Positions 24 through 51,616 of a stretch of DNA of 64,000 nt are shown piece by piece. Position 1 is the stretch's first letter; each line of letters begins with the position of its first letter. The translations under genes were made by a program, and so were the position numbers. The notes under the pieces are model-generated. The model made no database searches. It saw only the letters and a program-made list of their open reading frames with translations, and had not been told where the DNA came from. Source of the DNA: Chthonomonadaceae bacterium (GTDB lineage: Bacteria; Armatimonadota; Chthonomonadetes; Chthonomonadales; Chthonomonadaceae); contig DAIDHN010000007.1 of the NCBI GenBank assembly GCA_027459665.1, positions 1-64,000 of the forward strand. Reading direction: 5' to 3'.

Positions 24-1691
24 TCAGTTCATGGCTGAAGAAGCACTGCCTTCTTTTACCCGCACAATACGGTTGGCATGCAGCAGACCGGTATGCTCTA
101 CCAAACCAGAGGGCCAGTGAATAGTACACTGTGCCTGGCGCTCTGTATCTAGCCCGCAGTGCACACGACAATCTGAGGCAGACATATATGATCCGTCTGT
201 ATGGCACAGGCGAAGTCGAGTCTGTTTGCCTGTATGAAACAGTACGCTGGCTCCCAATGCATCCCGATTGCTTCTGGTGCCTTGCAGCTGCAGCTGCAGC
301 CAATTGCCTGCCTGACTGGTTTCATTGTGCAGCAGCAGCGGTCTTCCCTCACTATTTACAATAAGAATATCCATCCGTCCGTCATTGTCGTAATCGCCAA
401 TAGCCAGCCCTCGGCCTACAATCGGTTTCTGAAATACGCTGCCTGCCCCTGCCCCCGCAGAAACAAGGCGTTTTCCTTTCTGATTTATGAAGAGCAGAGG
501 GAGCTCATGGTAATTTTCAGAAGAGTCTGCTTCATGAATATTATCCTGAATATGGCCATTTGAAAGCACAAGATCAAGCCACCCGTTGTTGCTGCAGTCC
601 AGCCATTTTAATCCAAAAGAAATGTAAGCCAGTCCCTGGTCTGCCAGCGCAAGCTGCCCTGACATTTCAGTAAACAGGGAATTGCCATCATTGTGGTAGA
701 CGCATTTAGCCTGATGCTGAAAAGTTGCAACCGCCAGATCAAGCTTGCCATCATTGTCGTAATCTCCCCAGTCTACTCCCATCCCGCCATTAAAATTTCC
801 GTTTGCGTCACAGCAAACACCAGACTGGTATCCGATATTACGAAATGACGCCCCTCGGTTTTCCAGCAAGTCTGCTGCCACTCCATCGTTTGCCAGACAG
901 ATGCTCTGCCTGCCCGAATGGTTGTAATCTGCACATGCCACTCCCAGCGCCTTGCCATGTGTATCCTGCATTCCCCATACTTCAGACACATCCTGAAAGC
1001 GTTTACCTGCATGATTTTGATAAAGCCTGGCATACAGCGGCCTGTAGTGGCTTGGCCCGCAGGCGCCTTGCACAGCATTGGTGGCGCACAGGCGGGGCTG
1101 TGTGGCAGCATTGAACTGCACATAGTTGCAAATCAGCAGGGAAAGCCAAGGATCGTCAGGAGCAAGCTGCACCCATGCGGCTGATGTACCCCAGGGCTGG
1201 GCTGGGATGCCGGCCTCTTTTGTGATCTCAGTGAAACCTGATCCCCGTTCATTTTTCAGCAGCACCCCTCCCTCATACGCGGTGAGGTAGATGTCGGGAT
1301 AACCGTCGTTGTTAAAATCACCCACCGCACATCCCAAAAAATGCCCATTTATCCTGTGCAGTCCTGTTTGTCGGGTGACATCGGTAAAATTCCCTTTTCC
1401 ATCTCCTGCAAACAAAGCCGGCTGCGGCCCAACCAGCAGTATATCCAGATTGCCGTCCTGGTTAAAATCTAGAAAGGCACAGCCATTGCCTATGGTGCCC
1501 AGAATATCAAGGGGCCGCGCACCGGGCGCTTTCCAGAGATATGAAAGGCCAGAATCCTGCGCACATTCCCGGTAGTGTATGCCGTGAGCTGCCAGCGGCT
1601 TCTTTACAGATAATTCCGGCGCCCTGCATCCCGTACAAAATGCCGCCATTGCTGCAAGAAAGCGCCTTCGGCTATAGAGAGAAGAATTCAT
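24..1691 (-). CDS. Secreted ASPIC/UnbV and FG-GAP (VCBS) repeat lipoprotein, CRTAC1-like
   Basis: A 555-residue protein beginning with SRRRFLAAMAAFCTGC, which reads as a twin-arginine signal ending in a lipobox cysteine, so it is probably exported folded and lipid-anchored. From about residue 70 to 450 there are repeated D-x-D/N-x-D-G-x-x-D calcium-loop motifs (DFNQDGNLD, DFNNDGYPD, DYDNDGKLD, DYDNDGRMD), the mark of FG-GAP/VCBS beta-propeller blades. The last 100 residues (GNWLQLQLQG, then LGASV and IHWPSG) are the ASPIC/UnbV domain. The family is extracellular and of uncertain function, perhaps adhesion or carbohydrate binding. Its ATG overlaps the stop of the upstream TPR gene by four bases (ATGA), so the two are translationally coupled. 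It is the last gene seen of the LacI-headed cassette. A larger relative lies at 7481-9745. Confidence 0.85.
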   Translation of the reverse strand: MNSSLYSRRRFLAAMAAFCTGCRAPELSVKKPLAAHGIHYRECAQDSGLSYLWKAPGARPLDILGTIGNGCAFLDFNQDGNLDILLVGPQPALFAGDGKGNFTDVTRQTGLHRINGHFLGCAVGDFNNDGYPDIYLTAYEGGVLLKNERGSGFTEITKEAGIPAQPWGTSAAWVQLAPDDPWLSLLICNYVQFNAATQPRLCATNAVQGACGPSHYRPLYARLYQNHAGKRFQDVSEVWGMQDTHGKALGVACADYNHSGRQSICLANDGVAADLLENRGASFRNIGYQSGVCCDANGNFNGGMGVDWGDYDNDGKLDLAVATFQHQAKCVYHNDGNSLFTEMSGQLALADQGLAYISFGLKWLDCSNNGWLDLVLSNGHIQDNIHEADSSENYHELPLLFINQKGKRLVSAGAGAGSVFQKPIVGRGLAIGDYDNDGRMDILIVNSEGRPLLLHNETSQAGNWLQLQLQGTRSNRDALGASVLFHTGKQTRLRLCHTDGSYMSASDCRVHCGLDTERQAQCTIHWPSGLVEHTGLLHANRIVRVKEGSASSAMN

Positions 1692-4045
1692 TTTATAGCA
1701 GTAGAAGCCAGTATCATCGTATCTATCGTACTCTCTGAAGGCATCTGATGCACTGCCTTTAAGTGCTCTGTAAGGGCCTTCAGTTCTTTCTGCACGCCAG
1801 GCGCATTGTGATCCAGACTCAAGCAGACCTGGTACTGATTGATGGCTCGCAGGTAGTTACCGCTTTTTGCATACAGCCGCGCCAAACGCAGCCTAAGGCG
1901 AGGGTTTCTCAGATTCATGCGTGCCTGTTCTTCTGTATTGCTCAATTCTGTTCGGAAATGAGTGAGGGTATGAAAAAACCGCCTGCAGTCGGCTGACCTT
2001 GTTTGATCCCCCGTGATCAGGTAGGCCCTGGAAAGTTGAAACCATGCCTGCGCAAGATTGGGATTTGCAGAAACTGAGGCCATAAGATAGCGTACTGCCC
2101 GTTTGTTCTGATGCCGCAGCAATGCTACTTTTCCTAAACCGAGAAATGCATCTGCATTACCTGGATTCTGTTTTAGAAGACCTGTGTAGAGTTTTACCAC
2201 CTCCTTCTGATGTGCAGGCGTTGGCTCCTGGCTGAGAAGAAAGGAACAAAACTCTACAATCGTATCCCTGTCTTCTGGGTTGAGAGCCAGCGCCTGTCGA
2301 AAACTTTTTCTGGCAGCAGCAGTGTGATACATTTTGACTTCACATCTGGCCAGGTCTCTCTGCACGGCATAGTCATGCGGCTGAAGTGAAGCACACTTCT
2401 GCATCATCTTCTCGTTTGCCGCATAGTCTTCAGGGTCTTCTATGTCACAGGCTACCAGAGCATGCAGATAGAGCGGATTGTTGGGAGATTTCTGCAGAAG
2501 CAGTTTGATGCGCCGGGCAGCCTCATCCAAAAAACCTTCCTGGTAGTAGATGTGGGCAAGAAGATACTGGGTTTTTTTGTTGCCAGGCTCTGTTTGCAGG
2601 GCACGCTGAAAAGCCTTGAATGCATTCATCGTCTGGTTTTGCTGAAGCAGCACTTCTCCCAGCCCCTCGTTTGCCTGGGCATTTGCCGGATACTCAGACA
2701 ATATGTGCAGGTATGCACTGGCGGCTTCTGGCAAACGATTCTGGCGATACATGGTGGAAGCATCTTGAAGCAGCACAGGAATTTGCGGTGGAGATATGGG
2801 CAGGTCTGCGGTAATTACCGGCTGAGAGACAAGTGCAGGTGGATGCTGTTTTTGCAGAAGTTCCAGCTGTTTTTGCGCTCTTGCAGCCAGAGGGCTGTGC
2901 GCTACAAGGCTGCGAAGCTCTGCACGGGCAGCAGAATATTGGCCATGCCCAGCATACAGACGGGCAAGAGCAAGACCGCTGGACCAATTACCTGCTCTTG
3001 TCTGAGCGCCCAGTTCCAGCAGCTGTTCCTGATAGTTTTGCAATACCGCATGCAGCCGCATTTGCTGCTCTGCCTGACGCGGATGATGCAGATGCCTGTA
3101 CACGCGCGCAAGGGCAAAAGGAAACGCAGGATTGTCTGGGTCGCTGGCTGCTGCATTTTGCAAAAGTGACTGTGCCTGCTGATAGTTGCCCAGCGCAATT
3201 TCTGCCATGCCAAGCTGGCCCCCTGCTGCCGCTGCTCCTTCAGAGTCAGCTGTCTGCAGGGTAGCGGCAGCTGTTTGGTAATCTGTTTGCGAATGGGCCT
3301 GTGCAAGCTGCAGGCTGCCCAGATTCAAGGCTGTTTGGGCATTTTTCGAAGCAAGCGCGTTGGCTTTTACCGCTGCCTGCAATGCTGATGCCATATTATG
3401 CTGTGCCGCCTGCAGTTGTGAAAAGGCGAGCCAGGCCCTCCAGTTTTTCGGCGACAGGTGCACAGCCCGATTCAATGCCAGATAAGCCTGTGGAAAATAT
3501 TGCAGGTGCAGTTCTATAATGCCTTTCAGCCGCCAGGCATCTGCATCTCTCGGGGCAATCTTCACTGCGGTTTGCATTTGGCGGTCTGCTTCCCCCAGTG
3601 CGTCATGCATAAAACAAAACAGCGCCAGCGCCATACGCGGCCGCAATGCACCGGGATGAATTTGCACACACTTTTTGTAGGCTGAGTAGGCAGTCTGACT
3701 TTGATCAAGAAGAGTAGCTGCATTGCCCCAGGCAAGCATCGCCTCTTCATTGGTCGGATCAAGTTCAGCAGAGCGTGCGAAGGCAGCTGCTGCCGGCGCC
3801 GGCTCCCCCAAATTCTGCAGACGAATGCCGAGCCAGTAGAACACACGCGGATTATTTTTTTCTGTTTTGGTAAGTCGTAAAAGTTTCTGAAAAGACGCTG
3901 CCTGCAGCATGCGTTCCTGACGCCAGGGCGCAGACCAAAGCCATACTGCTGCCAGTGTGAGAAGCAGAAGCAACGCTGCTTCCAGGCGATATTTTAGGTT
4001 TTTTTTCGGCTTTTCAAGAGAAGAGGAACTCACTGTAGCATTCAT
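1688..4045 (-). CDS. Membrane-anchored TPR-repeat protein
   Basis: About 785 residues. A short cytoplasmic N-terminus (MNATVSSSSLEKPKK) is followed by one hydrophobic segment (LEAALLLLLTLAAVWLW), then a long outside domain made of tetratricopeptide repeats: the A-x-x-x-P-x-x-x-x-A-x-x-x-L spacing recurs throughout, for example PGNADAFLGLGKVALL and PNLAQAWFQLSRAYLITGD. Such proteins are scaffolds for protein complexes at the cell surface. The reading frame extends upstream to a GTG at 4099, but that codon follows the pilin hairpin directly and has no ribosome site; I prefer the ATG at 4045, although its own ribosome site is also poor, so the start is uncertain. It lies between the pseudopilin gene and an ASPIC/VCBS lipoprotein, and overlaps the latter by four bases. 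The TPR plus ASPIC pairing suggests a common surface complex. Confidence 0.8.
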   Translation of the reverse strand: MNATVSSSSLEKPKKNLKYRLEAALLLLLTLAAVWLWSAPWRQERMLQAASFQKLLRLTKTEKNNPRVFYWLGIRLQNLGEPAPAAAAFARSAELDPTNEEAMLAWGNAATLLDQSQTAYSAYKKCVQIHPGALRPRMALALFCFMHDALGEADRQMQTAVKIAPRDADAWRLKGIIELHLQYFPQAYLALNRAVHLSPKNWRAWLAFSQLQAAQHNMASALQAAVKANALASKNAQTALNLGSLQLAQAHSQTDYQTAAATLQTADSEGAAAAGGQLGMAEIALGNYQQAQSLLQNAAASDPDNPAFPFALARVYRHLHHPRQAEQQMRLHAVLQNYQEQLLELGAQTRAGNWSSGLALARLYAGHGQYSAARAELRSLVAHSPLAARAQKQLELLQKQHPPALVSQPVITADLPISPPQIPVLLQDASTMYRQNRLPEAASAYLHILSEYPANAQANEGLGEVLLQQNQTMNAFKAFQRALQTEPGNKKTQYLLAHIYYQEGFLDEAARRIKLLLQKSPNNPLYLHALVACDIEDPEDYAANEKMMQKCASLQPHDYAVQRDLARCEVKMYHTAAARKSFRQALALNPEDRDTIVEFCSFLLSQEPTPAHQKEVVKLYTGLLKQNPGNADAFLGLGKVALLRHQNKRAVRYLMASVSANPNLAQAWFQLSRAYLITGDQTRSADCRRFFHTLTHFRTELSNTEEQARMNLRNPRLRLRLARLYAKSGNYLRAINQYQVCLSLDHNAPGVQKELKALTEHLKAVHQMPSESTIDTMILASTAIK

Positions 4046-4107
4046 TTTGGCGCTCGCATTCAAAAATTTCCATAACAATGCAGTCTTTACTATCCGCACT
4101 CAGAATC

Positions 4108-4145
4108 TGTGTATCAGGCCGAAGCAAACCTTGGCCTGATACACA
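4108..4145 (-). other. Perfect 13-bp hairpin directly after the pseudopilin gene
   Basis: TGTGTATCAGGCC at 4108-4120 is exactly complementary to GGCCTGATACACA at 4133-4145, with a 12-base loop. It starts nine bases after the pilin stop codon and ahead of the TPR gene. No run of T follows on the minus strand, so it is unlikely to be a simple terminator. A role as a 3' stabiliser of the pilin message, with reduced read-through into the TPR gene, is my inference. A matching arrangement follows the second pilin gene at 50710-50740. Confidence 0.75.
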
Positions 4146-4154
4146 GCACTTAGG

Positions 4155-5063
4155 TCAATCCCAGTTTGCCTTGCCGCTTCCCGGGCCATCTCCGTAGCTC
4201 TTGTTGCATTCGTCTGCAGTATCAGAAGCGCCAGCCTGTGCAGGATCCATGCTCTTCCACCAGGGCAGTGTCGAACAGAGAGTTGGGTTTCCGCTCTGGT
4301 CAACCATTTTCACATAGCGCACATGTCCATCGGTGAAGGCTACTATGCCTCCCCCGTTGTAGAATGGTGCGCCAGTGGCTCTCTGGCCCCAGTCAGCGTA
4401 GCTTTTGCCTGCCAGAACAAATGTCTGCGCCCCTGAAATGGTCTGCTCACGATGCCACCTATTGTGAATGTTGGTACTGCCAGTAAGGTCTGGGCCATTG
4501 GCAGCAGCGCTGTTTTGGCCGCTCTGGGTGTTTACCTTGTCCCAGCCGCAATGCCCTTCTGCCAATAGCACACAGTCTGCAGGAGAATTCACGCCTGCCA
4601 ATGGCCGGCCGGCTGCCAGACGGCTCTGCAGGTTATTCAGGTCAGAATGCCCCAGCGCGTCTACACCTACCTGATGGGCCAAGAGATCGTTTATGAGCAG
4701 ACTCACATTACCGTCTGGCGCGTTGCCTATCGCAGGGTTGCTTGATGCGTCCCCAGGCGAAGTATACACTCCAGCATTCTTGATGTATGGGTTGATCGTG
4801 TTGATCCAGTTTGTTCCTCCGCATCCATTTTCGATTCCATTCACAATGGTGCAGTCCCATCCTGCTCTTGGAAACTGCTCATCGTAGTCTTGTACATACA
4901 TCAGAATGCCCAGGCCTACCTGTTTTGCATTGCTGGTGCCAGTTGCCTGGTATGCCTTTACTCTTGCCTGTGCAAAGACCGGGAAAAGAATGGCAGCCAG
5001 AATAGCGATAATGGCAATAACTACCAGCAGCTCAATGAGAGTGAAACCTTGCTTTCGATTCAT
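4155..5063 (-). CDS. Type IV pilin-like (pseudopilin) protein, DUF1559 / H-X9-DG type
   Basis: A 302-residue protein with the class III/type IV prepilin leader and helix: MNRKQG, cleavage before F, then TLIELLVVIAIIAILAAI with the conserved Glu at mature position 5. The helix runs straight into LFPVFAQARVKAYQAT, a sequence typical of Armatimonadota and planctomycete prepilin-like proteins. The C-terminal globular part holds VAFTDGHVRYVKM, the DG-H element of DUF1559. A prepilin peptidase would process it at the inner membrane, and it would assemble into a pilus- or type II secretion-like fibre; neither the peptidase nor assembly genes are in this window. The ribosome site AGAGGAT lies nine bases before ATG. 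It sits in the LacI-headed cassette after three small membrane proteins. Confidence 0.88.
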   Translation of the reverse strand: MNRKQGFTLIELLVVIAIIAILAAILFPVFAQARVKAYQATGTSNAKQVGLGILMYVQDYDEQFPRAGWDCTIVNGIENGCGGTNWINTINPYIKNAGVYTSPGDASSNPAIGNAPDGNVSLLINDLLAHQVGVDALGHSDLNNLQSRLAAGRPLAGVNSPADCVLLAEGHCGWDKVNTQSGQNSAAANGPDLTGSTNIHNRWHREQTISGAQTFVLAGKSYADWGQRATGAPFYNGGGIVAFTDGHVRYVKMVDQSGNPTLCSTLPWWKSMDPAQAGASDTADECNKSYGDGPGSGKANWD

Positions 5064-5151: not shown

Positions 5152-5460
5152 TTACTGGCCCATGGAAGGGTTTTTGTACAGGTTCGCGATGGCCATGGCT
5201 GCGTACCCGCCAGCCATTCTGCGTGCAGTAGCCTGATCGTCGGGGCTGAGGTTGTTGTAGTTGCCCTTGCACTTTTTGGCCAGCCCAGCCAAAACAGATT
5301 GATTTGCCTTGCCTTGTGCATCCATGGGTGCAGAGGCAGGGGGTGCCAGGAAGTAGTGGTATGCCAATCCGCCCATAAGAGCCAGCGCTACCACAACTAT
5401 GGCTATCACTGCGGGCATCGGAAGTGCCATTGCACCTGTGCTGTTGCTTTTTGCGGCCAC
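5152..5460 (-). CDS. Small single-helix membrane protein, tandem paralogue 1
   Basis: About 102 residues. After a short polar start comes one membrane helix (AVIAIVVVALALMGGLAYHYF), then a soluble tail of about 60 residues beginning APPASAPMDAQGKAN. The tail carries KKCKGNYNNLSPDDQ and AGGYAAMAIANLYKNP, shared with the next two genes. The family is unknown to me; the tail is predicted outside the cytoplasm by the helix position, and has one conserved cysteine. The open frame begins at TTG 5463, but the ribosome site AAAGGAG is better spaced (seven bases) for the GTG at 5460. The gene is 33 bases downstream of paralogue 2 and upstream of the pseudopilin gene, in one apparent operon. Confidence 0.78.
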   Translation of the reverse strand: MAAKSNSTGAMALPMPAVIAIVVVALALMGGLAYHYFLAPPASAPMDAQGKANQSVLAGLAKKCKGNYNNLSPDDQATARRMAGGYAAMAIANLYKNPSMGQ

Positions 5461-5496
5461 CAAACGTCTCCTTTCTTTTTGTATTTCCCAGCCTGG

Positions 5497-5823
5497 TTAT
5501 TCCGGCTGGGTAGCCTTGGGGTTCTTGTAAAGCGTTTGTATTGCCATGCTCGACCACTCTTTGCCGCACATTCTGTTCACAATTTGCTGGTCATGAGCGC
5601 TCAATTTACTAAAACTGCCTTTGCATTTTTGTGCGTATCGTATGAGAAGCGCACGTCTTTTTTGGGCGGCGGCAGAGAGGGGCGGCTGTGCCGAAGACAC
5701 ATTCATGCTGCCTGCATACATGGTAAGCAGGAAAACAAATACTAACAGAAGCAGCAGAAACACCGGTGTACTGAGGCGCTCTGTCTGCCATTTGTTCCGA
5801 ATATTTTTGAGAGCTTCTATCAC
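5497..5823 (-). CDS. Small single-helix membrane protein, tandem paralogue 2 (divergent)
   Basis: I place the start at the GTG 5821-5823, one base after the stop of paralogue 3 and about six bases after GGGAG; this gives 108 residues, like its neighbours. A longer open frame exists but would read backwards into paralogue 3. Layout: charged start (MIEALKNIRNKWQTERL), one helix (STPVFLLLLLVFVFLLTMYAG), then a tail with AQKCKGSFSKLSAHDQ and SSMAIQTLYKNP. It keeps the KC-x-G, LS-x-x-DQ and MAI-x-x-L-x-KNP pattern but has lost the MDAQG and AGGYAAM blocks and gained a second tail cysteine (RMCGKEW). Function unknown. It is the most divergent of the three and so perhaps the oldest or most specialised copy. 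Confidence 0.75.
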   Translation of the reverse strand: MIEALKNIRNKWQTERLSTPVFLLLLLVFVFLLTMYAGSMNVSSAQPPLSAAAQKRRALLIRYAQKCKGSFSKLSAHDQQIVNRMCGKEWSSMAIQTLYKNPKATQPE

Positions 5824-5824
5824 C

Positions 5825-6124
5825 TCAATCTCCCATATGAGGATGCTTGTGCAGCATGGCAATAGCCATGGCGGCATATCCTCCGGCAAGCTGCCTGGCT
5901 CTTGCCTGATCGGAAGCGCTGAGCCTGCTGAAATTTCCCCCACACTTGTTTCCCAGTTCTATCAACACTTTTCGATTGGCACGCCCCTGCGCATCCATCG
6001 GTGCAGGACGCGGAGGTGCAAAAAAGTTGACATAAGTCAACCTTGCCAGAAACAGCAGTAAACAGCTCAGCAAAAGAACTGCCGCTGCAGGGGACGCCTT
6101 GGCCTGTGATATTTTGTTCAGCAT
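5825..6124 (-). CDS. Small single-helix membrane protein, tandem paralogue 3
   Basis: A 99-residue protein with one helix (AAAVLLLSCLLLFLARLTYV) and a tail APPRPAPMDAQGRANRKVL, then NKCGGNFSRLSASDQ and AGGYAAMAIAMLHKHP. The tail is close to that of paralogue 1 over its whole length and resembles paralogue 2 more weakly. It starts three bases after the LacI stop codon, with AAAGGG as ribosome site, so it is almost certainly cotranscribed with the regulator. No catalytic motif is visible. Its position between a sugar-type regulator and a pseudopilin suggests an accessory of a surface or secretion structure; that is inference. Confidence 0.78.
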   Translation of the reverse strand: MLNKISQAKASPAAAVLLLSCLLLFLARLTYVNFFAPPRPAPMDAQGRANRKVLIELGNKCGGNFSRLSASDQARARQLAGGYAAMAIAMLHKHPHMGD

Positions 6125-6126
6125 CT

Positions 6127-7227
6127 CTACACCCTTTCCATACTGCCCTTCTTCTCATATTCTGCAGAAGGCGGAGCCGTAGATTGTCGTATGTGCAGCT
6201 GCATGGGAAAACGATGCTCCATGCCGGCAGACAGCTTGCCTTCCAGTATCTCATCCAGAACATGAACAGCGGCGTTGCCGATTTCCGTGAGTGACTGTGC
6301 AACAGATGTAGTGGGCGGTGTGGTACGCTGACTGATGATTGTAGAGTTGAAGCCCAGCACGGAAATGTCTTCCGGCACACGCAAACCTGCCTCCGGCAAA
6401 TGTTCTGTAAACCAGCATGCCCTTGACTCATCGCAGCAAATGATCGCAGTTGGACGATTGGGGTCTTTGAGCAGTTTTTCCCGAACCTCCATCAGCCAGC
6501 AGGATTCCGGGTTCCTATTTTCCTGCCAGGAATAGGACACCAGCGCAGATTCGGGCAGGGAAGCTCTGCGCAGGGCATCCAGAACGCCTTCTTTTCTTTC
6601 CCACCCCCAGGAAGAATGGTCTCCTGGGTATAAAAACGCAATGCGGCGGTGCCCCAGACTCAACAGGTATTCCATGGCTCGATCACCCCCCTGCCTGTTT
6701 TCAGCGTCTACAAAGCAGCACCCAGGATGATCAATTCGATACGAGACACAGACGGTAGGGAAATTGGCCTCAACCAGACTGGTGGTCAACGGGTCGTCTG
6801 CAAAACGCGCAATCAAAATGCATCCGTCTGAAGCACCGCTGAGAATGTCATCTCGCAAATGCTGCCAGTCAGGATGCTCAATCGTATGTAGCAGGAGATT
6901 GTATCCTTTCTTCCATGCCCCGGTTTGAACCCCCGAAATAACTTCTGTAAAATAACGATCCATCATGGAAAAGCTGTTATGAAAGTTCTCAGGCAGATTC
7001 AGTACAACACTCAGACGATATGTTTTTCCGGTTACCAGCGAACGTGCGGTTGCATTGGGGCGGTACTGCATTTGTTCTGCGATTTTACGTACTTTTAGCC
7101 GGGTAACTTCTGGTATGGCACAGTCTTTGCCGCTTAGCACAAAAGATGCTGTTGTACGCGAGACCCCTGCCGCCTTGGCCACATCGCTCATTCGCACTCT
7201 TTTTTTATCCACCAGGTAATGCTCCAT
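6127..7227 (-). CDS. LacI/GalR-family transcriptional regulator
   Basis: About 366 residues. The DNA-binding helix-turn-helix reads VRMSDVAKAAGVSRTTASFVLSG-like, followed by a hinge helix (YRPNATARSLVTGK) and a periplasmic-binding-type sensor domain (residues about 75-345) with the usual GCILIARF, LSLGHRRIAFLYPG and PEDISVLGFN elements. Such proteins bind a sugar or related ligand and repress, or sometimes activate, nearby genes. The frame is open to GTG 7254, but that codon lies inside the operator and only seven bases from the predicted transcript start, so I take ATG 7227; ATG 7191, with AAAGAG upstream, is also possible. It heads an apparent operon of three small membrane proteins, a pseudopilin, a TPR protein and an ASPIC lipoprotein. 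The palindrome at its promoter implies self-regulation. Confidence 0.9.
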   Translation of the reverse strand: MEHYLVDKKRVRMSDVAKAAGVSRTTASFVLSGKDCAIPEVTRLKVRKIAEQMQYRPNATARSLVTGKTYRLSVVLNLPENFHNSFSMMDRYFTEVISGVQTGAWKKGYNLLLHTIEHPDWQHLRDDILSGASDGCILIARFADDPLTTSLVEANFPTVCVSYRIDHPGCCFVDAENRQGGDRAMEYLLSLGHRRIAFLYPGDHSSWGWERKEGVLDALRRASLPESALVSYSWQENRNPESCWLMEVREKLLKDPNRPTAIICCDESRACWFTEHLPEAGLRVPEDISVLGFNSTIISQRTTPPTTSVAQSLTEIGNAAVHVLDEILEGKLSAGMEHRFPMQLHIRQSTAPPSAEYEKKGSMERV

Positions 7228-7244
7228 TATTTCATTTACATGTG

Positions 7245-7264
7245 TTAGTAACACGCTTTACTAA
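7245..7264 (-). promoter_or_regulatory. LacI-type operator at the transcription start of the LacI gene
   Basis: On the minus strand the sequence is TTAGTAAAGCGTGTTACTAA: seven-base arms TTAGTAA and TTACTAA arranged symmetrically about a central CG step. The central CG and 18-20 bp symmetry are what LacI/GalR proteins recognise. It begins about three bases inside the predicted transcript, immediately after the -10 box, the classic position for repression. Confidence 0.72.
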
Positions 7265-7267
7265 TAC

Positions 7268-7296
7268 ATAATATCATACAATGGTTTTTCTGTCAA
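7268..7296 (-). promoter_or_regulatory. Sigma-70 promoter of the LacI-headed cassette
   Basis: On the minus strand TTGACA (7291-7296) and TATTAT (7268-7273) are separated by exactly 17 bases. The predicted transcript start is near 7261. The rest of the gap towards the next gene (7297-7480) is AT-rich and shows no gene. Confidence 0.8.
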
Positions 7297-7480: not shown

Positions 7481-9745
7481 TTACCCTGTGCCGCCAGGCA
7501 GCACAAACTGGGAAAGTTCCTGCCGGACAGCTTTCTCAACCCCTTCGATAAGCCGATAGAATGTGCGTGGCGCCAGACCATCCCACCGCTGATGCAAACC
7601 GCTGCCCGGCCAGACTACCTGCACAGAAACAGCCGATTCTGTTTTACCCAGGCCAATGTGCTGCCGAAGAGGGTTGCAGCCAAAACTGCCGCCTGTACCC
7701 ACAGTACGGTGTATCTGGCGCACTGCATACGCATCTGATACAGTTGCTGTAATGCGCGCGCCCAGTGCAGAACGGTTCGCCTTCACTCCCTGCAGTTCCA
7801 GTACTATCCAGGCGTTTTCGTTGCCAGGGTTTACAAAAAGACGGCTCCAGGCTGTATCGCCCTCGTACGCGCCACCCATTTTTTCAAAAACATCCTGAAA
7901 CCCGTTGTTGTTTATATCGCCAAAAGCAATGCCATGCCCTTTTTGCAGGTTTCCAAAATCACCTGACCAGGTTACATCCTGAAAAAACTTTCCTTCATGG
8001 TTTCTCCACATGCGATTAGGCATCAGTCCCAGCAAATCCGGTATGCCTGTGCCCAGATAAAAATCCAGCCAGCCATCGTTGTCCAGGTCGCCAAAATTAG
8101 CGGCCATAGCAGGCATTACATGGTACAGCCCCGTTTCTCTGGATACATCTGTAAAAGTGCCATCACCATTGTTGCGATATAGATGACAGCGGGGTGCAGA
8201 TACAGGCAGGCCAAGCATATCTGCGGCAACAGTGCCCGCGCTGTCTACATTGTATCCCGCTACAAACAGGTCTGACCAGCCGTTATTGTCATAGTCAAAG
8301 AAGAAAGAAGCAAACCCTGATGAGGGGTTGTGAATGCCCGCTTCCACACTGACATCGGTGAATTTCCAGGCGGATTTTGCATCGCCGCCAGGCTGTAGAG
8401 GGCCGTCGTTTCTCAAAAGAATGCCGATGCGGTCGCGCAATGACAAATAAAGGTCGGGTCTTCCATCATTGTTGTAGTCTGCGCACACCACCGACTTTAC
8501 CCAGCCGGTGATGCCCATATTGCACAGGTCTGTTACATTGGAAAAGGTTCCGTCTCCATTGTTACGAAACAGTTCACATGGATTCACATCCCCTTCTGTA
8601 CTCTCATTTCCTACAAACAGGTCGAGCAGACCATCTCCATTGTAATCAAACCACACAGCAGTCTGGGTAGGATGAAATCGAAGCAGGCCCGCCTCCAGCG
8701 TAACATCGGTAAAAACCCCTTTGCCGTTGTTGCGAAGCAGCGAAAGAGGGTGATGCCCCTCTTTGCCCAGCCATGCTCCACGCAGAACCAGCACGTCCAG
8801 GTTACCGTCGTTGTTGTAATCTGCGCTCAACAGATTCAGTCCGCCCCATTCTCCCTCCAGACCGGCTTCATGCGTGCGCTCTGTGAATGTGCCATTACCA
8901 TTGTTCCTAAAATAGCGCAGCTGGTCTGTCAATCCCCATTCAGATACCATGATGTCCAGATTGCCATCCCCATCCAGATCATCCAGCACAACACTGCCTG
9001 CCAGGCCAGACAGCAGCAGCCCCATTTCTGCTGATCGGTCGAAAAAGCGGGGAAATGAGGAAGAGACAAAACAAGAAGGAGGTATTAGCATGGCTGCCGG
9101 AAGCGAGTTGGGCCATTCTCCCAGTGTCATGGCAGTTATATTGAGAAGCCACCTTGTCGTAAGGTCGTCTGGATATTCGTGCAAAAGATGCAGCAGCAGG
9201 TGAAAGGCTTGCTGTCCTGCCTGTTTTTTCTGATATATTCCTCCGCCCCGCAGCGGCGCCAGGCAGCTTTCTGCATTGTGCATGGCACAGCAGTTCTGCT
9301 GTTCGCCCAGGCGCATATAGCAAAGCGCCTGATGCAGCCTCAACTCATAGTGGTTGTAAGGGTTTTGCAGTATCTTCGGGTTTGTGGCATTGAGCAAATG
9401 TTCCATTGCACTGTAAGCCCGTATGGCTTTGTCAGTTTCACCTGCATCCAGCAGCTCTACAGGCAGACGCGGAGCCAGCATTGCTATCTCTTTTTGAGTA
9501 GGGTGGTTTTGCAGCATATGTTGAATCAACGACGCACGTTCCCGATTTAAATAAAGGTTGTATCTGGGGTCTGCCTGCCGGGCAACTTCCTGGAGGATAT
9601 CCAGCATATTTCTGACTGGGGTTGCAGCAGAATGGGTTTCAGTTGCTGACTGGCTTGGCGCACTGCACCCTGGCAGCGACCACATGGCAGTTAAGCCAGC
9701 CAGCCATTTCAGAAATTCCCGGCGGGTACTGTTGCTGTTTTTCAT
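7481..9745 (-). CDS. Tat-exported ASPIC/UnbV and FG-GAP repeat lipoprotein with helical N-domain
   Basis: About 754 residues. The start is ATG 9745, eight bases after GGAGGAG; the open frame reaches TTG 9763 but without a ribosome site. The N-terminus STRREFLKWLAGLTAMWSLPGC is a twin-arginine signal with a lipobox cysteine. Residues of about 45-230 are helical and TPR-like (LLDAGETDKAIRAYSAMEHLL), then come at least seven calcium-binding FG-GAP/VCBS loops (DLDGDGNLD, DYNNDGNLD, DYNGDGLLD, DYNNDGRPD, DYDNNGWSD, DLDNDGWLD, DINNNGFQD) and an ASPIC/UnbV C-terminus (LELQGVKANRSALGARI, QVVWPGSG). It combines in one chain what the 1688-4045 and 24-1691 genes encode as two. The protein is probably a cell-surface propeller; substrate unknown. 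Confidence 0.85.
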   Translation of the reverse strand: MKNSNSTRREFLKWLAGLTAMWSLPGCSAPSQSATETHSAATPVRNMLDILQEVARQADPRYNLYLNRERASLIQHMLQNHPTQKEIAMLAPRLPVELLDAGETDKAIRAYSAMEHLLNATNPKILQNPYNHYELRLHQALCYMRLGEQQNCCAMHNAESCLAPLRGGGIYQKKQAGQQAFHLLLHLLHEYPDDLTTRWLLNITAMTLGEWPNSLPAAMLIPPSCFVSSSFPRFFDRSAEMGLLLSGLAGSVVLDDLDGDGNLDIMVSEWGLTDQLRYFRNNGNGTFTERTHEAGLEGEWGGLNLLSADYNNDGNLDVLVLRGAWLGKEGHHPLSLLRNNGKGVFTDVTLEAGLLRFHPTQTAVWFDYNGDGLLDLFVGNESTEGDVNPCELFRNNGDGTFSNVTDLCNMGITGWVKSVVCADYNNDGRPDLYLSLRDRIGILLRNDGPLQPGGDAKSAWKFTDVSVEAGIHNPSSGFASFFFDYDNNGWSDLFVAGYNVDSAGTVAADMLGLPVSAPRCHLYRNNGDGTFTDVSRETGLYHVMPAMAANFGDLDNDGWLDFYLGTGIPDLLGLMPNRMWRNHEGKFFQDVTWSGDFGNLQKGHGIAFGDINNNGFQDVFEKMGGAYEGDTAWSRLFVNPGNENAWIVLELQGVKANRSALGARITATVSDAYAVRQIHRTVGTGGSFGCNPLRQHIGLGKTESAVSVQVVWPGSGLHQRWDGLAPRTFYRLIEGVEKAVRQELSQFVLPGGTG

Positions 9746-9849
9746 CAGCAGACTCCTCCACAAATCTATGTCTGCTCACTCATTCGCAAGGCATAAGCAT
9801 AAATCCTGCAAGGCAACTCTTACCCCGGGCATATGCCACAGGGCTAAAA

Positions 9850-34376: not shown

Positions 34377-34718
34377 TTACCAGCCGATTGGCAGGTGAAC
34401 CCACTGCCTGGTAACATAGTCGCCTAGCGTTAGGAAGAGGGCAAAAAGCCATATAAAACCAACAGATGCCCAAAACCATGTGAGCCTGGAGTTATATTTC
34501 ACCCCCATGAAGATGAGAACTACTGCGGAGGTTTTTATAACCGAAATCAGCACTGCCACCACAATGTTCAGCGCCCCCAGGTCTACCTGTGCTACTGCAA
34601 AGGTAAGCACTAGCATCACCATGAGAAAGACATAGTTCGCCAGGTAGGTAGATACCTTGGGAATATGGTGATTGCCATGGCCTCCATGACCATGATCATC
34701 ATGCGGTACAGATGCCAT
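34377..34718 (-). CDS. ctaF: Cytochrome c oxidase subunit IV, prokaryotic type
   Basis: About 113 residues from ATG 34718, which overlaps the ctaE stop as TAATG and has AGGGAGG upstream; the longer frame to 34763 is rejected. A histidine-rich start (HDDHGHGGHGNHH) precedes three membrane helices (YVFLMVMLVLTFAVAQV, LNIVVAVLISVIKTSAVVL, FWASVGFIWLFALFLTLG). This is the small helper subunit of caa3-type oxidases, without cofactors. Last gene of the respiratory cluster. Confidence 0.88.
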   Translation of the reverse strand: MASVPHDDHGHGGHGNHHIPKVSTYLANYVFLMVMLVLTFAVAQVDLGALNIVVAVLISVIKTSAVVLIFMGVKYNSRLTWFWASVGFIWLFALFLTLGDYVTRQWVHLPIGW

Positions 34719-35479
34719 TATTGCCTCCCTATGAGGTAGACCAGCGGATAGAGAAATATCCACACAATGTCTACAAAGTGCCAGTACAGCCCCGCCAATT
34801 CCAGCGTCATGTAATCATCTACCGACGGATGCTTGTACCTGATAAGAAACCAGATAGAACCCAGCACCAGTATCCCAATGATTACATGCAAACCATGTAG
34901 CCCTGTCATCACAAAGTAGAGACTGAAGAAGAGCTGCCTCTTGTGCAGTTCGAGCTGCTGGGGGTGGTACCCCGCCGGAAAGTCTCTTGAGCTGATGTTG
35001 GGCTGCCCCGAAGCTACCTGCGAGTTGGCGCTCAGGTCTCCGCCAGGCGGCTGGGTTGCTACAAAGTGAAAATTGGGGCCAGGGAAGTGATGCTCTCGAA
35101 ACTCTGCAGAATACTCTACATATTTCACCCCTAAAAACCCGAATGCACAAAGTATTGTAAGCCCCAGCCAAAACTGCGTTGCGCTGTTTTGCCCCAGCAT
35201 TTTTGCGCGCACCCCCATGGCCACAAAGAAGCTGCTGGTAAGCAGAATAAAGGTGTTGAGCAGTCCCAGCCATTTGTTGAGAGCCAGATGAGCCTCAAAA
35301 AATGAGTTGGGATATACGCTGCGGTATACCGTAAGCGCAAGGAAGAGCGCACCGAAGAACATGATTTCTGTTACCAGAAACGTCCACATGCCAACAATAT
35401 AGCACTCATTCTGCTGATCTATGTCCTCAAACTGGTGTGCCAGTCTCTGAGGCGCTACTTCCAGCTGTGCACTGCTCAT
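34718..35479 (-). CDS. ctaE: Cytochrome c oxidase subunit III
   Basis: A 253-residue membrane protein. Helices and family landmarks include [20 protein letters not shown], the [16 protein letters not shown] segment, [19 protein letters not shown] and the closing [20 protein letters not shown]. The TGLHGLHV and WHFVDIVW motifs are diagnostic. It stabilises subunit I in the haem-copper oxygen reductase. It overlaps ctaD by four bases (ATGA) and ctaF by one. Confidence 0.96.
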
Positions 35480-37230
35480 AAACTCTCCTCGGTAGAGGAA
35501 TGATCCTCAAGGGTTTTCTGGTCTGGCTGTTCTGTATTCAAAGGAGATACCGGTCTGTCTACTTGAGAGTCAGAGTAGTCTCCAGCCAATTCTCTCGCAT
35601 ATATCTCTTCGTAAGCATAGGCTTCTTCAGTTACTATGGGCACGCTATCAAAGTTGTGCGAGGGCGGCGGAGAGGGTATTGCCCACTCCAGGCCTTTTGC
35701 TCCCCATGGGTTTGGCCCGGCCAGCTCTCCGTATTTGAGCGACCACATCCAGTAAAAGAACGGAATGGCAAACCCAACAGCAAGCACGCTGGCTCCTGCC
35801 GAAGAGAGAATGTTCCACATTTGATACTCGGGCGGGTAGAAGTGGTACCGTCGCGGCATACCCAGGAAGCCAAGAATAAACTGGGGGAAGAAAGTGAGGT
35901 TGAACCCCACGAACATGATGATGCAGGCGAGTTTTGCCCAGCCTTCAGGGTACATGCGACCGGTAATTTTTGGCCACCAGAAATGCATGCCAGCCATGTA
36001 GCCGAAAATAGCGCCGCCTACCATAACATAGTGAAAGTGAGCCACCACAAAGTAGGTCATGTTGAGGTGCACATCTACCGCCAGCGAAGCAAGGTACAGG
36101 CCGGTTAGCCCGCCAATGGTAAAGAGAAAAATAAAGCCGATGGCATATAGCAGCGGCGCTGAAAGCCATACGTTTCCCTTGTACATGGTAGCCGACCAGT
36201 TGAACACCTTGATGGCGGAGGGCACTGCGATGAGGAAGGTAATAATAGAGAATACCATGCCTCCATACATCGATTCGCCGGTAACAAACATATGGTGTCC
36301 CCACACAAAGAAGCCAAGCAGTGCAATGGCCATGCTAGAAAACGCCACAAATTCGTAGCCGAATACTCTTTTTCGCGAGAAGCAGGTAATCACTTCGCTG
36401 ATTACACCCATAGAGGGCAAAATCATAATGTATACTGCCGGGTGCGAGTAGAACCAGAACAGGTGTTCAAACAGAATGGGATCGCCGCCGCAGGCTGGGT
36501 TAAAAATACAGACCCCAAACACGCGTTCAAGCACTACCAGCAGCAGGGTGATGGCAACAACCGGCGTGCCAAGCACCATTACAATGCTGGTAGCATACAT
36601 GGCCCACACAAACAGCGGCATTCGAAACCAGGTCATCCCTGGGGCACGCATTTTATGTACCGTTACAAGAAAATTGATTCCGGTAAAAATAGAAGCAAAC
36701 CCTGCAAAGAAAACCCCCACAATTACTGCAACTACATCGGTATTGCTGTATACCGAGCTGTACGGAACATAGAAGGTCCATCCGGTATCTATGCCTCCGG
36801 TTGCAATTGCACCTAGTGTAATTAGCGCCCCTATAATGTAAATGTACCAGCTGAGCAGGTTGAGGCGCGGAAAGGCGAGGTCGCGGGCGCCTATCATGAT
36901 AGGAAGCAGAAAGTTTCCCAGTGTTGCCGGTATAGATGGCACCAGAAAGAAGAAGACCATAATGATGCCATGTGCCGAGAAGAGTTTGTTGTATGCCTCT
37001 GAAGAGAAAAAAGTATCATGCGGGCGCACCAGTGCGACTCGAATGCCCGCCGCTGCCAATCCACCCAGAAAAAACATAATCGAGATGGAAAGGCCGTACA
37101 GCACTGCAATGCGCTTGTGGTCTTTGGTAAGTAGCCAGGAAGCAACAGTATGCTTGATATTCAGATAATTCTCTCTGGCCTGTTCATTAGGAGTACCCAA
37201 AGCTCCTGGCTGAAGAGGTATGCTGCTCAT
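35476..37230 (-). CDS. ctaD: Cytochrome c oxidase subunit I, type A2 (caa3)
   Basis: A 584-residue protein with about 12 membrane helices that holds haem a and the haem a3-CuB site where oxygen is reduced. Seen: [21 protein letters not shown] with the low-spin haem His, [19 protein letters not shown] with the CuB His and the cross-linked Tyr region, [16 protein letters not shown] with the two CuB histidines, and [17 protein letters not shown] with the haem ligands. The YSHPAVY sequence in place of GHPEVY marks the A2 subgroup, which uses a Tyr-Ser pair instead of the D-channel glutamate. Overlaps ctaC by four bases. Confidence 0.97.
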
Positions 37231-38336
37231 TGTAATTTTCCTTCACTTTTATGTAAAGTAGACTGCACGGTATCTGTATGTGCAAGCAGTGCCACGTGAG
37301 TATTGCCTGCATGATGCGCAGCGAGATGATGAGAGGTTTTTGGGGCAGCCCCCTGTTTGCCCGTATGCGAAAAACTGTTGTTGGGGCTGAGCGACTTGAT
37401 ATATGCTATGAGATCGAGCATTTCCTCTTCCGACATCTCACCTGCTGCATTGCCTACCGGATACCCTTCCATGGTGGGAGGCCAGCCGGAAATACGCTGC
37501 TTCTGCGGGAAGACAATAGCAGTTCGCAGGAAATTGGTGTCTACATGCGCAACTCCGCCTCCCTGCAGTTGTACCTGTGTTCCATACAGGCCCACCAGTG
37601 AGGGGCCATGCACATTGTCCTTGTCAGCGTGGCAGTTTGAGCAGCCATACTTCTGAAATACCCCCTGCCCTATCTCCACCGGGGTTTCGTGCTGCTGAGT
37701 TTCTGTAGAGCCTCCGGTAGTACGCCATTTGGCATAATCCTGCGGGGTCATTACATACACATAGCCGCCCATTTCAGAGTGATTGGTTCCACAGTATTCA
37801 CTGCAAAACAGATAGTATTTGCCTACTCGCGTTGGGGTGAACCATACCGTATTGTAGCGCCCTGGCAGGCAGTCGCGTTTCACACGAAAGGCGGGCACAT
37901 AAAACCCATGTATCACATCCTGAGAAATCATGGTGACTTTTACTGGCTTGCCTACTTCCAGATGCAGCTGATTGTTCTCTCGAATTCCGCTGCGCGTATG
38001 CTGAAAGTGCCACATCCATCTTTTGCCTATCAAAAAGATGTTGTTGCACCCGTGCGGAGGAGAATATACCTCGGCGTAAGGCTTGCATGACCAGGCATAG
38101 ATAAACAATCCCAAAATCATGGGAATGATAGACCAGGTAAGCTCAAGATAGAGATTGCCTGTAGATGGATTGCTCCGGTTGACTTTGGCACCCCTGCGAA
38201 ACCTTACAATGCAGAAAAGCATGATAAAGGTAACCAGCAGAGTAAAAACAATGGTCAGTATCACCATCGTCCAGAAAATGGGATCCATTTGCTGCGCGTA
38301 GGTCGATGCCTGCTCAGGGATCACTGGAAGGTTCAT
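37227..38336 (-). CDS. ctaC: Cytochrome c oxidase subunit II with fused cytochrome c (caa3 type)
   Basis: A 369-residue protein. Two N-terminal helices ([21 protein letters not shown]-like and [15 protein letters not shown]) anchor a periplasmic cupredoxin domain with the CuA ligands DVIHGFYVP and [14 protein letters not shown]. From about residue 225 a cytochrome c domain follows with the haem site [18 protein letters not shown]. The CuA centre takes electrons from the fused haem and passes them to haem a. An extra His-rich tail of about 45 residues ([19 protein letters not shown]) is not part of the family core. No signal peptidase site was identified before the first helix. Confidence 0.95.
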
Positions 38337-38354
38337 AAATACTTGGCTCCCGGT

Positions 38355-39248
38355 TTATACCGTGAATGAAGTGTCATTGGGAATACCAGCTCCTGGCGCT
38401 GGCAATTTGGGCTGCTTCTTCTCCCAATAGAGCATTGCGCCAATGGCCAGCACAAGAATAGCTACGGTGCTGCAGCCAGAAATTACAATCACGCGCTGAA
38501 TCACCAGACCATAATGCCCTTTGGTAGGGTTCCAGGTACAGCAGTACGCTATTACCTGGTCGATCACTGTGCCGATCTGGTTTTGCGACGCTTTTGTGAG
38601 TGCAATTTTCAAATCGTTCGGGTCGTAGTCCGACCCATAGATGTAGCGAAATATCTTACCCTGCGGCGTCATTATAACAACCCCAAGCGGGTGGTTGAAC
38701 TGCTGGTGCCTGAGGTCTTGCACCCAGTGGTCGCCTATTGCTTCCCCCAGCGCTGTTATGTTGTTCTCCTGCCCCGTCATAAAGTGCCAGCCTGCACTGC
38801 CTGCTGCCTGATTTTTCATCAGGCCAACATATTCTTTTTTGTTGGTTGCAGCAAGCGCACTGTTTTCATAGGGGTTGATAGAGATGGTAAGCATCTGAAA
38901 ATCTTTGCCGGGCTGATAGCTCAAATGATTGAATGCAGCGGCTATGCCTCTCATTTCCAGCAGGCAGCCCCCGGTACACTTATAGAATGGCATCATAAGA
39001 ATAACAGGATGTTTGCCATCAAAAAAAGATTTGAGCGGTACTGTTTGCCCATCTGATCTTGTGAAAGTGAGATTGAGGGGCAGCTGATGATTCACCAGCT
39101 GATCAAAATGTACGTCTGCGGCAGGCGTCAGAAAACTGCCCGTGTTGGTATTTCCCTGCGCATAAGCAAACGGCGCAGCAACCAGCAGTACTGCTGCTGC
39201 AATTATTTTTCCTAATCCTTTTTGTTTACCTGAAATGATGTTTCTCAT
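38355..39248 (-). CDS. SCO1/SenC-type copper chaperone with C-terminal membrane helix
   Basis: About 297 residues from ATG 39248 (the frame opens at 39320 without a signal). A Sec signal (GKIIAAAVLLVAAPFAYAQ) leads to a thioredoxin-like domain with the copper site YKCTGGCLLEM (CxxxC) and the distal His in RHQQFNHPLGVVI. SCO proteins deliver copper to, and reduce, the CuA site of subunit II. Unlike short SCO proteins it carries a C-terminal helix (VIVISGCSTVAILVLAIGAML), so it is anchored at that end, as in SCO homologues of ACIII clusters. It lies directly upstream of ctaC. Confidence 0.92.
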   Translation of the reverse strand: MRNIISGKQKGLGKIIAAAVLLVAAPFAYAQGNTNTGSFLTPAADVHFDQLVNHQLPLNLTFTRSDGQTVPLKSFFDGKHPVILMMPFYKCTGGCLLEMRGIAAAFNHLSYQPGKDFQMLTISINPYENSALAATNKKEYVGLMKNQAAGSAGWHFMTGQENNITALGEAIGDHWVQDLRHQQFNHPLGVVIMTPQGKIFRYIYGSDYDPNDLKIALTKASQNQIGTVIDQVIAYCCTWNPTKGHYGLVIQRVIVISGCSTVAILVLAIGAMLYWEKKQPKLPAPGAGIPNDTSFTV

Positions 39249-39270
39249 AGTACAGCTTTCCGGGGAAGTT

Positions 39271-40005
39271 TTAATGTTTCCCCATTCCTCCGGCAGGAGG
39301 AGCAGAAGGCATGGCCCCATGCTGCATGCCAGCGGGACCAGATGCGGGCATTTTTGGCATAGCCCCGTGCTGCATGCCGGCGGGACCAGATGCGGGCATT
39401 TTTGGCATAGAGCCGGGCTGCATGCCGGCAGGAGGAGCAGAAGCGGGCATTCTCATCATGGGGCGCTGTGAAGGTACAGGCGCTGCCTGAGATGCTGTTA
39501 CGCTGACTTTGGGCAGCGGCTTTTCAGAGGCAAAGCCAAACTCGTTTTCCTGGGCTGTAGCCTGCCCGCTTGTAAATGCAGGCTCATTCGGGCTGTTTTT
39601 ATCTGGCGTAACAGGGTTGGGACGCGTGGGCAGCCCCTGCTGTTCTACCAGCAGCATTGCCTGCTTGATCGGAATGTGCAGGTGCCCTTTCGGCCCTACA
39701 TAATATGATGTTTCTTCTTTTCTATCTTGCGCCCGCAACTGCCTTATATCTACACGCGGGTTTGCCTGCAGCACCGGAGGAGCAGGCAGCGTTCGCACGG
39801 TTGGCAGCGGATATGCGCTCAGGTTTTTGCCATTGTAGGGCGAAGCAAACAGGCGAAATATCCCCAGAGCACTTACCGAGGCAACCGCCACAAAAACCAC
39901 AATTCCAAACAGCCAGGGCAGCATCTTTACAGGGTCTAAATCACGCTGTTCAAAGCCTCTGCTCGGGTCCAGGCCAGGGTCGGGGCCAGTAGGCTTAGTG
40001 TGCAT
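39271..40005 (-). CDS. Single-helix membrane protein with Met/His/Pro-rich tandem repeats
   Basis: A 244-residue protein. A 28-residue inside segment, one helix (LPWLFGIVVFVAVASVSALG), then an outside domain. Residues of about 55-115 (PRVDIRQLRAQDRKEETSYY, HIPIKQAMLLVEQQG) resemble the short periplasmic region often encoded beside ACIII and oxidase genes. The last 60 residues are Pro/Met/Gly repeats: GPAGMQHGAMPKMPAS occurs almost twice, plus a diverged copy (PAGMQPGSMPKMPAS). Methionine with histidine spaced like this often binds copper(I). It sits between actF and the SCO gene, and its ATG overlaps the actF end by 11 bases with GGAGGTGAT as ribosome site. Function inferred, not known. Confidence 0.7.
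   Translation of the reverse strand: MHTKPTGPDPGLDPSRGFEQRDLDPVKMLPWLFGIVVFVAVASVSALGIFRLFASPYNGKNLSAYPLPTVRTLPAPPVLQANPRVDIRQLRAQDRKEETSYYVGPKGHLHIPIKQAMLLVEQQGLPTRPNPVTPDKNSPNEPAFTSGQATAQENEFGFASEKPLPKVSVTASQAAPVPSQRPMMRMPASAPPAGMQPGSMPKMPASGPAGMQHGAMPKMPASGPAGMQHGAMPSAPPAGGMGKH
39311..39454 (-). repeat. Three tandem 48-bp in-frame units inside the Met-rich gene
   Basis: Units at 39311-39358, 39359-39406 and 39407-39454. The first two differ at only a few bases; the third is diverged in its second half. Each encodes 16 residues, so copy number changes would keep the frame. Confidence 0.85.
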
Positions 40006-41221
40006 GTTCCATCACCTCCAGAATCTGCGGATCAAGATTAGGAATAAGAGACGCCCGCTTTATGTTTCTAACAAACAGAGCCATCCAGATGCCCCCCATA
40101 AACAGCAGGGCGCCCAGATACCCCATTCCCCCCTGAAACTGCACAACGAATCCGCTGTCTGAACCGTGCCAGCTGTGAAACATTGGGATAACCTCCCAGG
40201 CTACTTCGAGAATGCGTGTAAAAAAGATAAGCAGGGCCGTATTGCGCAGCATGCGTGCATATCTTTTTAGGCGTGAAGAGAGCAGCAGCAGAAAGGGCAG
40301 AAAAAACTGGCAGATAATCAGGGTGCTGGTAAACCATGCCAGGGTGCGCACATTGCGCTGCACGTAGAAAGTGACCTCAAGCGGCAGGTTGCCCGACCAG
40401 TAAATCATATACTGCGATATAGAAAAGTATGCCCATACCATGGTCATCATGAGCATCAGGTTGCCCCAGTCTTTGGTAGCTTTGGGGTTTGCCATCTGCG
40501 CATACTCGCCTTCACCAGCCAGTTTCATGGTAGTTGCCAGCGCTACAGCAAACGACATTCCGCAGAGCGCCGCGCCGATCAGAAAGTGAAAACCGAATAT
40601 AGTAGAGTACCAGTGCGGGTCAAGCGACATAATCCAGTCGGTGGCAGCAGAGGTAACCGCAAACACCATCAACAAAAAGCAGGGTGCTGCAATGCTGGCC
40701 CGCATGGTAGCAATCTGCTTGGCAGTCTGCACATTCTTTTCCAGGTCCTGCTTGAGGGCAAGGCTTCGAATAATGTATGCGATGCCTGTAAGCACCACGA
40801 AAAACACGATATTGCGTATCGTGAAGAAAAGTGGATTGAACCAGACAGCGCGGCTCTGCAGAATGGGGTCGGATGCTACTGTAGAAGGATGCGCCCAGGG
40901 GAAAAGATGCCGCGTGAATGCTGCATAGACAATGGGAAGCACGCAGAGCGCCATAAAAGCAAGGTTCAGCGCTCCCGCTTCAAAAATGCGCAAAATGGGT
41001 CTGCACCATTCAGCGCGCACCATATTGCTCAACAGCATCAGACCAAAGCAGCCTATGGTGAGGCACATCAAATAGTCGAAGGCAAATGTCCAGGCATGGT
41101 AAAAGTTTTGCACCGAATGCAGAGAATCAAAGATGAGCAGGATCAGTCCCAGCACAGAAGCCGGCACAGCCATAACTCCAAGGCGCTGTAGTGTGGCCGG
41201 GAAACGCTGGTTATTGTCCAT
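39995..41221 (-). CDS. actF: Alternative complex III subunit F (quinone-interacting membrane subunit)
   Basis: About 408 residues from ATG 41221 with GGGAG upstream; the open frame extends to 41419 into actE and is rejected. Roughly ten membrane helices, for example VPASVLGLILLIFDSLHSV, DYLMCLTIGCFGLMLL, AAPCFLLMVFAVTSAATDW and TLAWFTSTLIICQFFLPFL. Typical ActF segments WIMSLDPHWYSTIFG and YMIYWSGNLPLEVTFY are present. ActF resembles half of the NrfD-type ActC and forms part of the membrane core of the quinol:acceptor oxidoreductase. Overlaps actE by 11 bases. Confidence 0.92.
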   Translation of the reverse strand: MDNNQRFPATLQRLGVMAVPASVLGLILLIFDSLHSVQNFYHAWTFAFDYLMCLTIGCFGLMLLSNMVRAEWCRPILRIFEAGALNLAFMALCVLPIVYAAFTRHLFPWAHPSTVASDPILQSRAVWFNPLFFTIRNIVFFVVLTGIAYIIRSLALKQDLEKNVQTAKQIATMRASIAAPCFLLMVFAVTSAATDWIMSLDPHWYSTIFGFHFLIGAALCGMSFAVALATTMKLAGEGEYAQMANPKATKDWGNLMLMMTMVWAYFSISQYMIYWSGNLPLEVTFYVQRNVRTLAWFTSTLIICQFFLPFLLLLSSRLKRYARMLRNTALLIFFTRILEVAWEVIPMFHSWHGSDSGFVVQFQGGMGYLGALLFMGGIWMALFVRNIKRASLIPNLDPQILEVMEHAH

Positions 41222-41933: not shown

Positions 41934-42460
41934 TTCTCCACCTCAGAAACCAGTTGCGCGCCCAGGTCCTGCAGCATCTGCGCCGTCTCCTCCCTGTCAA
42001 AGAGGCCGTCTTTCGCTTCTATTGCCAGAAAGAATAGGTCGGAAGAGGCTCGTTCAAATCTTGGGGTATTGAAAATGGGGTGGTGCAGCCTGGGCAGTCC
42101 ATTCAGAATCAGCATTCCCAGCCCGGCTGTAAATGCCGAAAACAGAATTGTAAGCTCATATGCCACAGGAATAAAGTTTGGCCAGCTGAAATAGGGTTTC
42201 CCTCCCACATTCCATGGGTAGTTCATGGTAGCCGTCCAGGTCTCCAGGCCAAATCCTGTAGCGCATCCCAGCACCCCCATGATAAACACCGACCAGGGCA
42301 GGCGCGGGTCATCAAAATCGAGTACATCCGCCAGCCCTTCTATCGGTATAGGGGAGTATGCCTCAACCTTGCGGTATCCTTTTTCCCTCACCGCGATGGC
42401 TGCATTCATCAGTTCTTCCGGGGAAGCAAATTCTCCCACCATTGCGTACATTTTGCTCAT
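41930..42460 (-). CDS. actD: Alternative complex III subunit D (DUF3341)
   Basis: About 176 residues from ATG 42460; the open frame to 42544 would overlap actC deeply. The N-terminal MYAMVGEFASPEELMNAA and YSPIPIEGLADVL are typical of DUF3341. Two membrane helices follow (WSVFIMGVLGCATGFGLE and YELTILFSAFTAGLGML), with the PWNVGGKPYFSWPNFIPV segment between them. A structural subunit without cofactors. Confidence 0.93.
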   Translation of the reverse strand: MSKMYAMVGEFASPEELMNAAIAVREKGYRKVEAYSPIPIEGLADVLDFDDPRLPWSVFIMGVLGCATGFGLETWTATMNYPWNVGGKPYFSWPNFIPVAYELTILFSAFTAGLGMLILNGLPRLHHPIFNTPRFERASSDLFFLAIEAKDGLFDREETAQMLQDLGAQLVSEVEK

Positions 42461-42464
42461 GGCG

Positions 42465-47040: not shown

Positions 47041-47060
47041 AGGTACCCTCTCTGCGCCTC

Positions 47061-51542: not shown

Positions 51543-51616
51543 TGTGAAACCTCCTGACCACAATGGCCGTTTTTGATGATGGTTACCCCTGTTATTAGAA
51601 GTATTGCCTTGCCCTT

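Follow-up and report, generated by a model that had tools for sequence, protein, structure and literature searches.

Small membrane-anchored proteins of an apparently undescribed family encoded beside type IV pilin genes in Armatimonadota

Introduction

Planctomycetes and Armatimonadota encode tens of pilin-like proteins per genome, most without an assigned function. Pilotins and TPR pilus lipoproteins (GspS/AspS, PilF/PilW and Tgl) are small helical envelope proteins that serve type IV filament machines. Excerpts of published accounts describe 68 DUF1559 proteins in Planctopirus limnophila, with their function called unknown (PMC10632474), and 79 pseudopilin genes in Fimbriimonas ginsengisoli, with the pili suggested to act in attachment (PMC4072686). 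The window analyzed here, a 64,000-nt stretch of a Chthonomonadaceae genome (contig DAIDHN010000007.1), encodes three small membrane proteins, S1–S3, beside a type IV pilin and behind a LacI-type repressor.

Operon structure

The operon is on the minus strand, in the order LacI-type repressor, S1, S2, S3, pilin, TPR protein and FG-GAP/ASPIC protein.

6127..7254, minus strand: LacI-family repressor with HTH (PF00356) and sugar-binding-type (PF13377) domains, first gene of the operon
5825..6124, minus strand: S1, 99 aa, ATG start, one-helix membrane protein with a predicted helical-hairpin tail
5497..5823, minus strand: S2, 108 aa, most divergent paralogue, with a GTG start immediately behind the S1 stop codon
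5152..5460, minus strand: S3, 102 aa, GTG start, paralogue
4155..5063, minus strand: pilin with a prepilin N-terminal motif
1688..4099, minus strand: TPR protein, 803 aa, hydrophobic stretch at the N terminus
24..1691, minus strand: FG-GAP/ASPIC-UnbV protein, start overlapping the TPR stop

The LacI stop and S1 start are 2 nt apart and the S1 stop and S2 start 1 nt apart; S3 follows S2 after 36 nt. Translation of the repressor probably begins slightly within its ORF, and S3 has an alternative TTG start one codon earlier (103 aa). The initial annotation placed a pilin gene next to the triplet, and the gene 88 bp downstream of S3 is a type IV pilin by its N_methyl motif (PF07963, E 1.5e-10). Another FG-GAP/ASPIC protein, for which a Tat signal scores weakly, is encoded just upstream of the operon (7481-9763). 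Elsewhere in the window (34718-47825), the translations of an ORF cluster resemble subunits of alternative complex III and of cytochrome oxidase.

Coordinates and pairwise BLASTP agree with the annotated tandem paralogues of 99, 108 and 102 residues, one transmembrane helix each. E values of 5e-30 (S1-S3), 7e-16 (S2-S3) and 4e-13 (S1-S2) are far beyond chance. S1 and S3 share 63% identity across 70 residues, and S2 is more distant. Ka/Ks gave no value because synonymous sites are saturated. The tail patterns KCxGxxxxLSxxDQ and MAIxxLxKxP recur in all three proteins as annotated, and MDAQG and AGGYAAMAIA are common to copies 1 and 3. An AlphaFold2 model of S3 (8 sequences, mean pLDDT 78) places a membrane helix at 15-38 and tail helices at 48-64 and 73-96, with the predicted tail hairpin confident (pLDDT 85-92). 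S1–S3 contain no prepilin cleavage/methylation motif and no N_methyl match, so they are not type IV pilins.

The S family in Armatimonadota

Searching with a profile of S1–S3 recovered relatives both in this genome and in the phylum. A wider profile detected the family in 59 of 291 Armatimonadota genomes at E <= 0.001, of which weak matches (E above about 1e-7) may include false positives. Named bacterial genomes were scanned with two patterns. The first gave no match; the second gave four loci, all from Armatimonadota (Chthonomonadaceae, Chthonomonadia, Fimbriimonas and another Armatimonadetes MAG), which is a weak test of absence outside the phylum because broader alignments were too variable to use. 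No match was found in the plasmids searched. Triplication is not general: a single copy is usual, and a pair occurs in one relative (L062). A fourth, divergent member of the same genome (L071, 8307-8690 of contig C6) lies beside a set of LacI, pilin, TPR and FG-GAP genes.

Forty-three members, chosen by sequence alone and not by neighborhood, were examined. Behind an N-terminal anchor they share the signature GG[DN][WFY][NS]K[LV]S..[DE][QKR], with variation, and S1–S3 carry it. The tail cysteine that had been called invariant is present in S1–S3 and a few relatives but does not extend to the family: the position holds Ser in 19 members, Thr in 10 and Cys in 8, and cysteine was rejected as a family hallmark.

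The suggestion that the family was undescribed held up, and a profile search placed the tail in no known family. Searches of Pfam, NCBIfam, PHROGs and PDB gave no match to the S proteins. No Pfam or NCBIfam model reached its curated cut-off (best E about 0.0015 among 18 members, chance-level), and the best PHROGs hit, where no cut-off exists, had E 0.034, also chance-level. A PDB sequence search with the family found no match, and Foldseek with the S3 model found none at E <= 0.001 (best E 3.5), a short hairpin being a weak query. With the search terms used, no published account of a small pilin partner or of a pilin-LacI link was found. The S family is real, apparently undescribed and tied to pilins.

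Gene neighborhoods

A same-strand pilin gene lies within 700 bp of 36 of the 43 members and within 2 kb of 40, as it does in the window; about 0.8 would be expected from genomic pilin density. Related loci of one phylum are not independent samples, and a binomial probability exaggerates the enrichment, though gene orders and sequences differ widely. Coupling of the S family to pilins, conserved across the phylum, is well supported. A LacI-type gene occurs within 2.5 kb of 34 of the 43.

Two kinds of members were distinguished by gene order. Where the pilin precedes the S gene (25 loci), sequence reading classes 21 members as clear lipoproteins; in 3 the cysteine is less typical, and 1 has a membrane helix. 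Where the S gene precedes the pilin, as in the window (15 loci), all members have a membrane helix, and a lipobox-like cysteine occurs in 0 of 15 versus 21–24 of 25 downstream members. Since the lipoprotein tails are outside the cytoplasm and both kinds share the same tail, that of the membrane form should be outside too.

The genome (3.67 Mb) has 55 genes with a prepilin motif; six relatives have 58-122. A recognizable small partner is present at about a third of its pilin loci, so most pilins do without one. Several pilin genes (L131-L170) adjoin short membrane or lipoprotein-like ORFs that lack the hairpin tail. These hairpin-less proteins resemble the family at the N terminus, a putative kinship, and at one locus (L100) such a protein adjoins a full family member.

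Control region

Four sequence and structure features were located in the operon and at its upstream end.

7268..7296, minus strand: promoter-like site, TTGACA, 17 nt, TATTAT, 11/12 consensus, TG before the -10
7245..7264, no strand assigned: palindromic operator-like site TTAGTAAAGCGTGTTACTAA, CG-centered, directly downstream of the -10
5487..5510, minus strand: small hairpin that spans the stop codon of S2, ahead of S3, z -2.7
4107..4146, minus strand: 14-bp perfect stem-loop between the pilin and TPR genes, -28.9 kcal/mol, z -5.1

The promoter-like site is a consensus match rather than a mapped start, the best of 5 in the region where 3.5 are expected. The palindrome places an operator-like site at the repressor's own promoter, the mark of a LacI-autoregulated operon, and autoregulation through this putative operator would be the natural reading. 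No second match to TTAGTAAAGCGTGTTACTAA occurs in the 3.67 Mb genome at <=2 mismatches. A CG-centered palindrome with at least 8 of 10 positions matched precedes 16 of 36 related LacI-like genes at family loci and is found in about 6% of shuffled sequences, a contrast that is approximate because plain base shuffles were used. Genes for GH42 beta-galactosidase and ABC sugar-binding proteins are found near some of the cassettes on the Fimbriimonas side, and ABC permease genes near L062; these neighbors fit a sugar inducer and do not prove one.

The stem-loop at 4107..4146 can be read as a putative brake between the pilin and TPR genes. At the same position, two relatives (L171 and L172) carry strong stems that differ in sequence and precede U-rich runs.

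Repressor genes are often paired with pilins in this genome. A same-strand pilin lies downstream of 11 of the 17 LacI-HTH genes (10 by the nearest-pilin rule, plus C11:65148, whose pilin is 1,086 bp downstream), so the majority of its LacI repressors seem to be pilin regulators. The window itself holds a second LacI-then-pilin pair (50751-52642), followed by a 709-aa ORF (48201-50330).

Proposed role and alternatives

The best explanation of the whole, to which we give a probability of about 0.5, is that S1–S3 are dedicated membrane-anchored partners of the neighboring pseudopilin, switched by the LacI-type repressor. Each S protein would be held in the cytoplasmic membrane by its one helix, N terminus inside, with the predicted hairpin reaching into the periplasm. 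The repressor would bind the palindrome at the promoter of its own gene, and a ligand, probably a sugar or a similar molecule, would act as inducer and relieve repression of the repressor gene, S1–S3 and the pilin together. With the genes abutting, S proteins and pilin would be produced coordinately. Downstream of the pilin gene, the stem-loop would reduce how much TPR and FG-GAP protein is made. The hairpins may bind the pilin, or oligomerize around it, and so keep it membrane-bound until, or while, the general type IV filament machine assembles it; genes for prepilin peptidase, a platform protein and secretins are present elsewhere in the genome. Alternatively, the hairpins may form the base of a surface structure that contains the pilin. 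Assembly, retention and base factors are thus all candidate roles, and the step from traveling with a pilin to binding and assembling it is one that we infer.

Co-expression with the pilin could also serve a separate envelope task. The S, TPR and FG-GAP/ASPIC proteins might then form a complex of their own, with the pilin merely co-regulated. Members with a membrane helix often have a TPR gene in the operon (12 of 43 loci, all with the S gene before the pilin), sometimes with FG-GAP. However, the common neighbor is the pilin and not TPR, and the 25 members directly downstream of a pilin have no TPR gene within 3 kb. We regard this arrangement as unlikely.

A pilotin-like or secretin-linked role, in which the S proteins guide a channel for secretion or for a pilus, as lipoproteins of the GspS and PilF types do, would suit a family that is small, predicted to be alpha-helical, often lipoprotein and tied to the type IV filament superfamily. 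It is made improbable by linkage to pilin rather than secretin genes, by the presence of just two secretin genes, on other contigs, in a genome with several S genes, and by the lack of a convincing lipobox in the window copies.

Small one-helix proteins often modulate larger machines, and the S genes are co-encoded with a regulator. They could on those grounds be envelope sensors or modulators that report on a LacI-controlled pathway and are not structural partners. There is no cytoplasmic signaling part, with about 14 residues before the membrane helix in S3 and none in lipoprotein members, and a sensor role appears similarly improbable.

The initial annotation proposed a hetero-oligomer of the three S subunits joined through the cysteine. 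K-C-x-G does occur in all three copies, S2 has a second tail cysteine, and disulfides can form outside the cytoplasm, on which side the tail is placed. Yet with Cys in 8 of 43 members and Ser or Thr in 29, a cysteine-joined complex is not supported and is very improbable. That the S proteins, being short with one membrane helix, are a small hydrophobic toxin (holin-like or type I) is scarcely credible given their long conserved soluble tail, the lipoprotein members and the stable phylum-wide pilin linkage.

Returning to the S proteins as LacI-switched pilin partners, a broader and more tentative suggestion, which we consider possible but not likely, is that Armatimonadota keep sugar-switched surface fibers, with many pilins, many LacI repressors for them and cassettes that have their own S-type anchor. 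If so, the cell would change its pilin coat or uptake fiber with the available sugar. As a small family that accompanies pilins under its own repressor switch, the S proteins offer a way in to pilin function: members would mark the pilins that form self-contained units, and the ligands of the repressors could reveal the purpose of each pilin.

Comparison with known systems

The S proteins have no sequence or fold match to GspS/AspS, PilF/PilW or Tgl. They also differ from these in genetic linkage, which is to pilins and not secretins, and the window copies are membrane-helix proteins. Like the Verru_Chthon cassette proteins (TIGR02596, TIGR02599), the operon has a pilin-like gene in a repeated cassette. 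However, the Verru_Chthon families are pilin-like and the S proteins are not, and only the generic N terminus of the neighboring pilin scores against their models, far below cut-off.

That pilin is of the same broad kind as the DUF1559/H-X9-DG pseudopilins (PF07596, TIGR04294) but falls under both curated cut-offs, with 17.9 bits against a gathering score of 23.3 for PF07596 and 14.0 bits against 19 for TIGR04294. The second pilin of the window, in the LacI-pilin pair at 50751-52642, passes the TIGR04294 cut-off with 26.2. A structure model of the operon's pilin (mean pLDDT 34.5) was too low in confidence for use. Neither a small anchored partner nor a LacI-type repressor within the cassette is mentioned in the excerpts of PMC10632474 and PMC4072686. 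The arrangement resembles LacI-family autoregulated sugar operons in that the repressor gene comes first and a CG-centered palindrome lies at its promoter, but this operon mainly yields a pilin cassette and not a catabolic pathway.
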